Virus record (IMG/VR): IMGVR_UViG_3300044625_001217
Coordinates: 1-35,403 of that record
DNA length: 35,403 nt
Origin: a virus
Strand: one strand, 5' to 3'
The position numbers and the translations under genes are program-made. Under the pieces are notes generated by a model. The model saw only the letters and a program-made list of their open reading frames with translations. It did not search any database and was not told the DNA's origin. Shown here in pieces: positions 22,380-34,824 of this stretch (the stretch's first letter is position 1; every line of letters begins with the position of its first letter).

Positions 22380-22679
22380 TTAGTTAGTGTCAAAAATTTG
22401 TTCGTAAACCAATTTGCTCCGATTGTCTGTAACAGAGACATATCGAACGTGACGGCTCATTGCATCACTGATATTTAGTGGATCCTTGGGACCAAATGCC
22501 ATGTGCTTGATCCAAGCAGGACATCCACCAAGGGAAATACGAACTTCGGCACCAGTTGCATCAGTACCATAAAAATCAAATGCAGCCTTCTCACCATCAT
22601 AATAGGTGAAAAAGCAATCGATAGAATCATATTTCTTGCGAACATCCGCAAGAGTCATTTCTGTAGCAGTTTTAGCCAT
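22380..22679 (-). CDS. Hypothetical protein (99 aa)
   Basis: Its ATG overlaps the stop of the upstream 57-aa gene by 8 bases, so it is likely read by re-initiation. A small alpha/beta protein (CFFTYYDGEKAAFDFYGTDATGAEVRISLGG, then PAWIKHMAFGPKDPL). No catalytic motif or family recognised. Confidence 0.78.
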   Translation of the reverse strand: MAKTATEMTLADVRKKYDSIDCFFTYYDGEKAAFDFYGTDATGAEVRISLGGCPAWIKHMAFGPKDPLNISDAMSRHVRYVSVTDNRSKLVYEQIFDTN

Positions 22680-22845
22680 TAGGCAATCTCACTTGCTTGA
22701 TTAAAATAGGTAGTTGGCCATTCGCGTCAAGCGCACGAAGAGTACCAACTTTAGCCTCCATGAGGCTTTTGTGACGGTTATTACGAAGGCGGGTTTTGCG
22801 TTTTCTGTGCGCCCGAGCAGTTATACGTTGTTTAGAATTAGGCAT
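22672..22845 (-). CDS. Small basic protein (57 aa), leaderless first gene of operon
   Basis: Short gene with an Arg/Lys-rich N-terminal half (RITARAHRKRKTRLRNNRHK) that suggests nucleic-acid or ribosome binding, and a hydrophobic C-terminal strand. The ATG lies exactly 6 bp after the TATACT of a strong promoter, leaving no room for a Shine-Dalgarno site. It leads the operon that ends with the RMF-like gene. Function unknown. Confidence 0.75.
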   Translation of the reverse strand: MPNSKQRITARAHRKRKTRLRNNRHKSLMEAKVGTLRALDANGQLPILIKQVRLPNG

Positions 22846-22851
22846 ATGAAT

Positions 22852-22879
22852 AGTATACTCCTTATTTATGGTCTGTCAA
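22852..22879 (-). promoter_or_regulatory. Strong early promoter, leaderless geometry
   Basis: On the minus strand TTGACA (22874-22879), 16 bp, TATACT (22852-22857), 6 bp, ATG. Immediately downstream of the tmRNA terminator. Confidence 0.88.
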
Positions 22880-22884
22880 ATAAC

Positions 22885-22908
22885 AAAACCCCCTTTGAGG
22901 GGGGTTTT
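22885..22908 (-). terminator. Rho-independent terminator of tmRNA transcript
   Basis: AAAACCCCC ... GGGGGTTTT stem-loop followed on the minus strand by a T-rich tract. Sits between the tmRNA and the next promoter. Confidence 0.88.
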
Positions 22909-23227
22909 GGGTCGATTCAGATGCGGGAGACCAAACCCCACTGCTTCAAGCAGCCATTGCCATATAGTTGGCAATTATTTTTTGCAACTGTTTATTTACG
23001 ACACTTGTTACCCGTGTCGGGTATCTCCTTCTTCATTACTTTGCGCCAATCGATTCCTTTCGACCCCGTGACCCGAAGCCTAGGACTTCGGGAAATGCCC
23101 CGCTGCTACGAGGACTTGGCTCGCCGTTTTCAGAGGATTGCAGATTCTCTGACTTAGGCTAATGGAGTCGGGGGGATTCGAACCCCCGTCTTGTACGCAT
23201 TTCAATCCAATATCAACAATACCATTA
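22909..23227 (-). ncRNA. ssrA: Circularly permuted (two-piece) tmRNA
   Basis: Read on the minus strand. First comes the acceptor piece ending at 23163: T-arm GGGGG-TTCGAAT-CCCCC, then CGACTCC and discriminator A, no encoded CCA. A linker of about 95 nt follows, then the coding piece starting at 23067 with GGGGTCG, which pairs with CGACTCC over 7 bp (one G-U). Next are a D-loop-like GGAATCGATTG, a 5-bp GCGCA that pairs with TGCGT in the acceptor piece (helix 2), and a clear pseudoknot (23000-23022: ACCC/GGGT and GACAC/GTGTC). A tag frame then ends ANYMAMAA-stop (22946-22972). Piece ends, the resume codon and processing sites are approximate. Confidence 0.82.
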
Positions 23228-23845
23228 TTATGTAGTAGGCTTTATATCGTAGTAATAATTGTCATCGTGGCCATCAATGATCCAACGATCACTTTCACCT
23301 TCGCATTTCCATATCTTGTTGTCAACCTTAAAGTCAGGTTTTTCCGGGAAGGGTTTTGTAACAAATGACATGTTTTTCCAAAATATTCTATTGTTGGGCT
23401 GGAGTGTATAGTTTCCGTTGTCCAGCGCAATCATATGAAGGCACTTGTATTGGCTGGGTTCCTCTGAATAGGAATTTTTATACCAATCAAAGGTCATTGT
23501 ATAGTCGCCCCAATGTTCGGTCTTGTCTTTCAGAACAACTTTTGCTCTGCAATCAAAAAGAGCATCATATTCAACAGTGGATACATTTTCATGGAAACAA
23601 TCCCAAAGTTGAAGATGATCTAGAGGCATCAAAGGGGCCTCTGGCTTCCAACATAACATATGAATAGGGACTCTGCTACGAACGATTCCGTAGTCAGTCA
23701 TTACATGAAAGGTCATGGCATATCCAGCGCATGACTGTGCGCCAAATACTAGAACCTTATCAAATTCTCCTTTATGTTGCTCATGTTGGTACATGTGTTC
23801 TTTGCGAAGATAACAATAAAAATGTGGTATATTAACGTTGTGCAT
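23228..23845 (-). CDS. Conserved T4-like phage hypothetical protein (205 aa)
   Basis: N-terminus VNIPHFYCYLRKEH followed by a long globular alpha/beta protein rich in Trp, His and Tyr (LDHLQLWDCFHENV, LDNGNYTLQPNNRIFW). I recall relatives of unknown function in T4-like cyanophages, with the same HFYCxLRKE start, which supports ATG 23845. That ATG begins only 2 bases after the 3' end of tRNA-Tyr, with no Shine-Dalgarno site. The stop lies directly next to the tmRNA acceptor piece. No catalytic motif recognised. Confidence 0.85.
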   Translation of the reverse strand: MHNVNIPHFYCYLRKEHMYQHEQHKGEFDKVLVFGAQSCAGYAMTFHVMTDYGIVRSRVPIHMLCWKPEAPLMPLDHLQLWDCFHENVSTVEYDALFDCRAKVVLKDKTEHWGDYTMTFDWYKNSYSEEPSQYKCLHMIALDNGNYTLQPNNRIFWKNMSFVTKPFPEKPDFKVDNKIWKCEGESDRWIIDGHDDNYYYDIKPTT

Positions 23846-33777: not shown

Positions 33778-33848
33778 TTCCTCAGATAGGATTCGAACCT
33801 ATACAAAGAGATCCAAAGTCTCTGGTGCTACCATTACACTACCGAGGA
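33778..33848 (-). tRNA. tRNA-Gln (TTG)
   Basis: Acceptor TCCTCGG with CTGAGGA (one G-T), anticodon stem AGAGA/TCTCT with loop CTTTGGA (TTG), T-arm ATAGG/CCTAT with TTCGAAT loop, discriminator A, no encoded CCA. Its first 15 bases also encode the end of the SpoU-family methyltransferase. Confidence 0.94.
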
Positions 33849-34382
33849 GTGAATTTTAGCGCAATAATTATTCATGATAATTGAACTTGCGCAACCAACA
33901 TTGATGCTTCTTACAGATCCGTACTGAGGGATATACAAGACATCATCACACATACTTAGCACATCCATAGGAACGCCAATCTGTTCCTGACCAAAGATCA
34001 TAATATAATGCACATTTGGATCAAAGTCAAATGCATTTACATCTTTGGCTTCAGGAATGTTGTCTATTCCAATTAGTCTAACGGGTCCTGATTCTTGCTT
34101 GGATTCAAAATAAGATCCAAGATTATCAATGTTTCGTACATGATGAAAATTGGTATAATGGTGAGTACCAACAGTACCACGACGATCATATTTTTTATGC
34201 CCATAAATTACTACTTCTTTCGCCAGAAACGCATTAGCATTTCGAATGACCGTGGCGATATTAAAGTCATTGCCAATATTGCAGCACACAACACTGAAGT
34301 TATGTCTTTTAGTATTGAGATCAGCTTTGATTGCATCATCAGCCCAATAGTGGTAATGATCAATAATATTACGGGTTTCCAT
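33834..34382 (-). CDS. SpoU/TrmH-family RNA 2'-O-methyltransferase
   Basis: 182-aa SPOUT enzyme. Motif 1 NDFNIATVIRNANAF, motif 2 IFGQEQIGVP and motif 3 YIPQYGSVRSINVGCASSIIM are all present, giving the knotted SAM-binding site. Likely modifies tRNA ribose, fitting the tRNA genes in the same operon. ATG 34382 overlaps the upstream gene by 14 bases with GAGG upstream; longer in-frame starts lie in that gene. The last four codons and stop are inside tRNA-Gln. Confidence 0.88.
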   Translation of the reverse strand: METRNIIDHYHYWADDAIKADLNTKRHNFSVVCCNIGNDFNIATVIRNANAFLAKEVVIYGHKKYDRRGTVGTHHYTNFHHVRNIDNLGSYFESKQESGPVRLIGIDNIPEAKDVNAFDFDPNVHYIMIFGQEQIGVPMDVLSMCDDVLYIPQYGSVRSINVGCASSIIMNNYCAKIHSSVV

Positions 34383-34824
34383 TATCCACAACCTCGTATT
34401 CATTCTTGATTCGAACTTCTTCGCAGAACGTATGATAATGCATTCCAGATCGGCAAAGATTTCCAGGCTTTCCGGTGACTTCACAAATCTTGTATGAATT
34501 ATCTTCTGCGGTATCAATCAACTTTCTAACATCATGATACAGTTTGTCATTGTCTGTGTTCATCATGTAATAGAACCGAAGACCACCAAATTTTTCTTTG
34601 ATTTGAAGAAGCATAAACAAAGGCTGTTCAGGGTTTTCTTTGGTATTCTTTCTCTCTTCATCAAGAAGAACAGAAAGATCAGAGCATAGTTTATCAACAA
34701 GCAGATACCAACCACTTGGAAGATTGTATGGCGAACTATGAACCATACTCTTGAAAACAGAAGGATAGTCTTCAATCAGTTTGTCGATTGGATCTGCGTA
34801 CTCTTTTAGTTCAATAGGATTCAT
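34369..34824 (-). CDS. Conserved phage hypothetical protein (151 aa)
   Basis: Contains LLQIKEKFGGLRFYYMMNTDND and a following AEDNSYKICEVTGKPGNL block, a combination widespread in phage proteins of unknown function. The pattern CEVTGKPG replaces the C-E-x-C-G more often seen, so a metal site may be lost. ATG 34824 overlaps the previous stop (ATGA) and is preceded by AAGGAAAAG. Confidence 0.85.
   Translation of the reverse strand: MNPIELKEYADPIDKLIEDYPSVFKSMVHSSPYNLPSGWYLLVDKLCSDLSVLLDEERKNTKENPEQPLFMLLQIKEKFGGLRFYYMMNTDNDKLYHDVRKLIDTAEDNSYKICEVTGKPGNLCRSGMHYHTFCEEVRIKNEYEVVDNGNP

Follow-up and report, generated by a model that had tools for sequence, protein, structure and literature searches.

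The minus strand of the virus DNA analysed here carries a gene that, judged by its sequence, is a circularly permuted (two-piece) tmRNA and is apparently intact. The stretch analysed, hereafter the window, is a whole IMG/VR virus record of 35403 bases (IMGVR_UViG_3300044625_001217), and this record is a T4-like virus. With a probability of about 0.85, the locus is read as a functional permuted tmRNA gene of a T4-like phage, working by the mechanism proposed below. The tmRNA identity is firm; two-piece phage tmRNA is an already known kind and is not new. The new element of this gene family is the interchangeable, structured intervening segment (IVS) lying between the two pieces.

The gene and its virus

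Genes for a UvsX-like recombinase, a ribonucleotide reductase and ThyX are present in the window. When 50,697 phage records were searched, the UvsX, polymerase and helicase proteins were 42-56% identical to their closest proteins, which were those of cyanophages, Pelagibacter phage HTVC008M and Methylophilales phage Melnitz; no near DNA match to the window was found. The window also holds five tRNA genes, none of which encodes a CCA end, and a gene for a SpoU-type RNA methyltransferase (33834-34517, minus strand) adjoins the tRNA-Gln gene.

ARAGORN reported a permuted tmRNA with the tag ANYMAMAA. When the whole window was compared with 4227 Rfam families, an end-to-end match to RF04321 (tmRNA_permuted) was obtained, with 82.9 bits and an E value of 1.2e-14, the gathering score of this family being 47 bits. 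The search with covariance models proposed in the preliminary description was thus successful with the merged model. It was not with the clade models: of the alpha, beta and cyano families only the betaproteobacterial RF01850 was listed for the window (lower-scoring matches of the clan being left out), yet its 48.5 bits lie under its cut-off of 84. The features of the locus, all on the minus strand, are the following.

23228..23235, minus strand: late-promoter-like motif, CTACATAA, differing from CTAAATAA by one base
23163..23223, minus strand: tmRNA acceptor piece, with helix-2 strand GGTAT, T-arm GGGGG-TTCGAAT-CCCCC, acceptor strand CGACTCC and discriminator A
23068..23162, minus strand: structured IVS of class A, 95 nt
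22909..23067, minus strand: tmRNA coding piece, with acceptor strand GGGGTCG (23067-23061), helix-2 strand, PK1 stem, tag frame, helix 5 and PK2
22999..23019, minus strand: PK1-type element, stem CGACAC/GTGTCG, loop GGGTAACAA
22946..22972, minus strand: tag reading frame, GCC AAC TAT ATG GCA ATG GCT GCT TGA, i.e. ANYMAMAA-stop (ARAGORN and sequence)
22941..22953, minus strand: helix 5, CTGCT/AGCAG, surrounding the stop codon
22910..22940, minus strand: PK2, TGGG with CCCG and GGTC with GACC
22885..22908, minus strand: hairpin resembling an intrinsic terminator, AAAACCCCCC-TCAAA-GGGGGTTTT, from sequence
22672..22845, minus strand: next gene, a conserved basic protein of 57 aa, with its own CATAAATA at 22870-22863

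The position of the acceptor piece ahead of the coding piece, which the preliminary description had put forward, is confirmed by the sequence, ARAGORN and RF04321 alike, and the same description had rightly recognised the pairing of CGACTCC with GGGGTCG, the helix-2 complementarity between the pieces (GGTAT/ATACC) and the tag frame ending in a stop codon. It had placed the gene at 22909-23227, which is near; as corrected, the gene extends from 23223 to around 22910 and is followed by the terminator-like hairpin to 22885. Its "clean" PK1 holds in part: the stem CGACAC/GTGTCG covaries in the family, but the putative second stem, ACCC/GGGT, shares bases with helix 2. PK2 and the structure of the IVS were absent from that description.

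The motif CTACATAA ends 4 nt ahead of the acceptor piece and shares bases with the stop codon of the preceding gene. For this preceding gene (23228-23845, minus strand), a match to PHROG 3704 (ferredoxin) was obtained, and the phage genes that it matches bear the names PurM or ferredoxin, two labels that conflict; no Pfam match was found for it. Downstream, the 57-aa protein is 53-88% identical to 13 relatives. Pfam and PDB gave no worthwhile match for this protein, and the idea that it is a ribosomal S20-like protein found no support in these searches.

Permuted tmRNA in a phage had been called unusual. The gene does lie in a T4-like virus record, but this judgement needs softening: according to PMC9004378, 402 of 18,146 phage genomes carry tmRNA, with 133 unique structures in all; 53 of these are two-piece, 50 of them from marine or aquatic samples. 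The two-piece tmRNA of Melnitz is reported in the same paper, which also finds that 17 of the 47 contigs clustering with this phage have a permuted tmRNA. In PMC11915505, where RF04321 is introduced, 79 phage tmRNA sequences are counted, and PMC4131195 lists phage tmRNA genes as well as DS6A; the mycobacteriophage and other phage tmRNAs there are likewise phage-borne and, in the portion consulted, are not described as permuted.

The ssrA gene of Melnitz (MZ577097) resembles the present one in being a two-piece tmRNA of a T4-like phage, whose UvsX is among the best matches (55.8%). It differs in being of the alpha type (RF01849, 106.7 bits for a cut-off of 50) and in encoding CCA. Its IVS is about 140 nt long, may contain a small ORF and belongs to none of the classes A, B and C described below; from 46096, an open frame of 54 codons starts after GGAG and runs into the coding piece. 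By eye, an open frame also seems to be present in the IVS of another locus (L207). In Melnitz, a glutamine riboswitch (46398-46446) lies beyond the tag frame, where the annotated tmRNA reaches its 3' edge, and upstream of a small open frame recognised by eye. Its position suggests control of this small frame and not of the tmRNA, which departs from the description in PMC9004378. Such a riboswitch in or beside the gene of the window was looked for and discarded, no Rfam match being obtained in 22800-23400.

Conservation in 58 viral genes

Relatives of the gene were collected by scanning viral contigs with the neighbour proteins, with IVS and coding-piece patterns and with a T-arm pattern. The 68 parsed entries, from which six matches cut at contig ends or oddly started had been left out (L021, L258, L024, L260, L276 and L278), were reduced to 58 distinct genes on the basis of the acceptor piece, the IVS and the first 100 nt of the coding piece. 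All of the 16 relatives' loci chosen for comparison with RF04321 passed its cut-off, with scores of 51.7-85.2 bits. This family, which merges the alpha, beta and cyano families, has the same piece order, tRNA-like domain, helix 2 and tag frame; however, its consensus has CCA, which is missing from the acceptor piece of the window and encoded in none of the 68 entries, the structured IVS lies outside the model, and the strongest bacterial matches listed score 113-162 bits against 82.9 in the window.

The tRNA-like domain is preserved. All seven pairs of the acceptor stem are formed in 57 of the 58 distinct genes, with several pair types and partly through compensatory change, and the T-stem is likewise complete in 57. 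The pair G3.U70, an identity element for alanine, occurs in 58/58. The five pairs of helix 2 are kept in every gene, with compensatory variants such as GGTAT/ATACC, GGCAT/ATGTC and GACAT/ATGTC.

In the 58 aligned coding pieces, 93.7% of the alignment cells are paired overall, versus 36-45% in slid controls; one row of this alignment (A3), L277, is off by one base, which counts against the structure. Eleven pairs are changed on both sides, a value reached by none of 500 shuffles, and the further pair types are not above the shuffles (407/500 reach the observed value). The PK1 stem is paired in 98.3% of the cells, with three pairs showing changes on both sides, and helix 5 in 99.3%. The first stem of PK2 is invariant (58/58, 100%), while its second stem covaries (94.8% of cells); PK1 together with PK2 is typical of two-piece tmRNA according to the consulted section of PMC3985003. 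The tag hairpin is less regular, at 78.7% of cells. Within it, the last base of the resume codon (C/U) co-varies with that of the fourth tag codon (G/A), and this pair is kept in all 58 genes; the remainder of the drawn hairpin is missing in one of the two tag types, the AAPMRMAA type.

The tag frame, with an alanine resume codon (inferred from its position) and a stop codon, is found in 58/58 genes, and the tag always has 8 residues and an Ala-Ala end. The two main types are ANxxAMAA-like and AAPMRMAA-like. Among the 67 readable entries of the 68, the tag ends in MAA in 62, in IAA in four and in VAA in one. The 32 bacterial tags read for comparison have 10-13 residues; the ending MAA occurs in one of them, and VAA or IAA in several.

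The sequences ahead of the genes were also compared. TAAATA lies 10-12 nt ahead of the acceptor piece in 28/58 genes and TACATA, the form of the window, at -11 in 10/58, so that one or the other is present at about -11 in 38/58; TAAATA occurs in 1.5% of random 25-nt pieces from the window. In some genes (e.g. L042 and L308), the tmRNA begins within a few bases after a tRNA gene. On account of this upstream motif and of the tRNA-tmRNA adjacency in other genes, late expression, or expression jointly with tRNAs, appears likely. TATAAAT is quoted as the T4-like late promoter in the part of PMC9004378 concerned, where early expression is postulated for the Melnitz tmRNA.

A chance resemblance to tmRNA was rejected on the strength of ARAGORN, RF04321 and the conservation across the 58 genes. 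Sequence comparison establishes that the two pieces stand in permuted order and join into a tRNA-like domain, that a tag frame and PK2 are present, and that these pairings are kept with compensatory changes.

The gene is not universal among related records, no RF04321 match above the cut-off being found in three large ones (G003, G004 and G005; 113-136 kb, maybe incomplete). At 44 of 69 neighbour-gene loci, the stretch examined was without a coding piece; as a sign of true absence this is weak, 14 of the 44 contigs carrying the gene elsewhere (by contig names) and several being cut short.

Three classes of intervening segment

Three classes of IVS were distinguished in the 58 genes: class A in 46 (71-99 nt, 36 distinct sequences), class B in six (122-167 nt, four distinct sequences), with a fold unrelated to that of class A, and class C in six, where 5-6 nt separate the pieces.

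The class A fold is composed of the helices P1, P2 and P3, a pseudoknot formed by pairing of the P2 and P3 loops and, usually, a hairpin P5. In the window, P1 is GCC/GGC, the P2 loop CTGCAA pairs with the P3 loop and the P5 loop is TCCTAGG. This last loop (23085-23079 in the window) remains a palindrome, or close to one, in its variants (CCTAGG, CCCGGG, GCATGT), which would fit a loop-loop dimer or a pairing with the 5' strand CCTA. The window IVS scores 106.9 bits with the model R1, the window being among the 36 sequences from which R1 was built; in the source alignment (A1), the window is one base too long (23163), and L042 and L277 were shifted by MAFFT.

When the 36 class A sequences were fitted to R1, 93.0% of the cells paired, versus 31-47% in slid controls. 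This alignment was guided by the nested part of the structure, which works in that structure's favour. Changes on both sides were found in 15 of the 27 pairs, for a total of 59 such cells, and none of 500 shuffles was as high; for further pair types, 77/500 shuffles reach the observed value. The loop-loop pairing, which lies outside R1, is kept in 87.4% of the cells, with double changes such as CUGUAA/UUACAG. The window IVS gives a better fold than shuffled sequences, with a z of -2.99, and a short class A form (L077) does so less clearly, with a z of -1.41. The class B fold is multi-branched, with GGUUAG/CUAACC as its closing helix; six pairs are double-changed in its four sequences, and z values of -3.15 (L098) and -0.11 (L280) were obtained; the support that sequence comparison and folding lend to it is weaker than for class A.

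In viral contigs, all 38 matches of the class A pattern lie inside tmRNA genes (two with one side cut by a contig end), as do the four matches of a variant class A pattern, one of which is already among the 38. The nine matches of the class B pattern are also all in tmRNA genes, two of them via loci on the same contigs; for one (L382), the locus ends just past the start of the coding piece. Neither class was thus seen outside tmRNA genes among the viral pattern matches; the class A pattern covers 34 of the 43 class A entries then known, and divergent copies could be missed. In 17 viral records searched over their full length, R1 found exactly one copy in ten and none in seven, two of the latter being class C.

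Outside this family, the best R1 score was 10.6 bits, away from the tmRNA, in a set composed of 34 bacterial loci, Melnitz and 12 other viral permuted tmRNA loci. The bacterial loci (L320-L323 and L350-L379, the loci listed out of 4 + 108 genomes above the cut-off) were called permuted in 29 cases by ARAGORN, one-piece in three and not at all in two. In genomes of 84,980 species, the class A pattern had a single match, in a Pseudomonas contig; by eye, this match resembles a chance occurrence within coding sequence, and RF04321 finds nothing in the genome concerned. No Rfam match was found inside the class A IVS (E up to 5) and no credible one inside class B, the sole overlap, at the edge and on the other strand, being sR32 with 13.2 bits for a cut-off of 40. 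Searches of the open-licence literature, outside which most subscription papers fall, yielded no description of conserved structured IVS modules.

The tag types are distributed over the IVS classes as follows: class A, 29 of the first type and 17 of the second; class B, four and two; class C, only the second, in six genes. Tag types and IVS classes are therefore partly shuffled, which suggests recombination within the tmRNA gene.

Proposed function and competing readings

For a functional tmRNA, the following course may be proposed. The precursor would be transcribed at a late stage of infection or along with the adjacent tRNAs. It would be cleaved by RNase P 5' of GGGGTCG, the 3' end of the acceptor piece would be trimmed after A23163, and CCA would be supplied by the host; RNase P and tRNase Z are the probable processing enzymes for two-piece tmRNA in the excerpt of PMC3985003. 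Removal of the IVS would release a structured RNA. The mature molecule would be charged with alanine by virtue of G3.U70 and, with host SmpB, would rescue ribosomes stalled on broken mRNAs, adding an 8-residue tag that mostly ends in MAA.

SmpB (PF01668) was not found in the 18 viral records searched, the window and Melnitz included, some of them perhaps fragments, and was detected in 10 of 14 control genomes. Because the viral records lack a detectable SmpB, that of the host probably serves the phage tmRNA, and rescue with host SmpB late in infection is the likely mechanism. As the function itself, protein tagging or ribosome rescue is plausible. Degradation of the tagged proteins is uncertain, as the tags are short and end in MAA, IAA or VAA and not in ALAA, the ending named in the part of PMC3985003 at hand. 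The character of these tags, the number of further pair types in the coding piece, the putative second PK1 stem competing with helix 2, the lower RF04321 scores and the lack of universality count against a functional gene.

The last two of these points would also be expected of a relic of a host ssrA, acquired by chance and no longer working. Such a relic is, however, very improbable, given that 58 distinct copies preserve the tag frame, the T-arm and, with compensatory changes, the acceptor stem and helix 2, and that the upstream motif stands at a fixed distance in 38 of them. The failure to find a phage SmpB could also mean that the RNA competes for the host's, as a decoy occupying SmpB or AlaRS and blocking host trans-translation, a role suggested for the tRNA-like molecule of phage DS6A in PMC4131195. 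DS6A consists of little beyond this domain. In the present family, by contrast, every gene retains its tag frame, and nearly all 58 coding pieces retain PK2 and the stem of PK1; a decoy is accordingly judged quite improbable. A somewhat better case, still an unlikely one, can be made for a rescue RNA whose tag spares or redirects the protein, the ribosomes being freed without feeding host proteases: the 8-residue length and the endings in place of LAA, set beside the longer bacterial tags, speak for it, but the Ala-Ala end is invariant, and the same endings are met among the bacterial tags. A functional tmRNA gene working by the course proposed above remains the preferred reading.

The IVS raises a question of its own. 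Its fold could be a mere processing scaffold that presents two cut sites and has no role in itself, and this has a little less than an even chance of being right. The invariable location between the two pieces and the single copy in each of the ten large records that have it agree with a scaffold; against it, class C genes of the same family manage with 5-6 nt, and the class A fold is detailed and pseudoknotted, with class B unrelated to it. Because class C genes have so little there, the gene would seem able to do without the class A and B modules, which may possibly serve as cargo or in regulation. In the form of a cargo slot, maturation of the tmRNA would free a third RNA with a fold of its own, of class A or B, acting by itself as a regulator, sensor or ribozyme in infection, class C being the empty slot; this proposal is held as rather unlikely.

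Viral genes for ribosome rescue hint that stalled ribosomes limit phage production. Furthermore, the gene comes with any of three interchangeable spacers, of which two are folded RNAs and have no known family; this amounts to a natural experiment, by which the role of the spacer in permuted tmRNA genes becomes directly testable.
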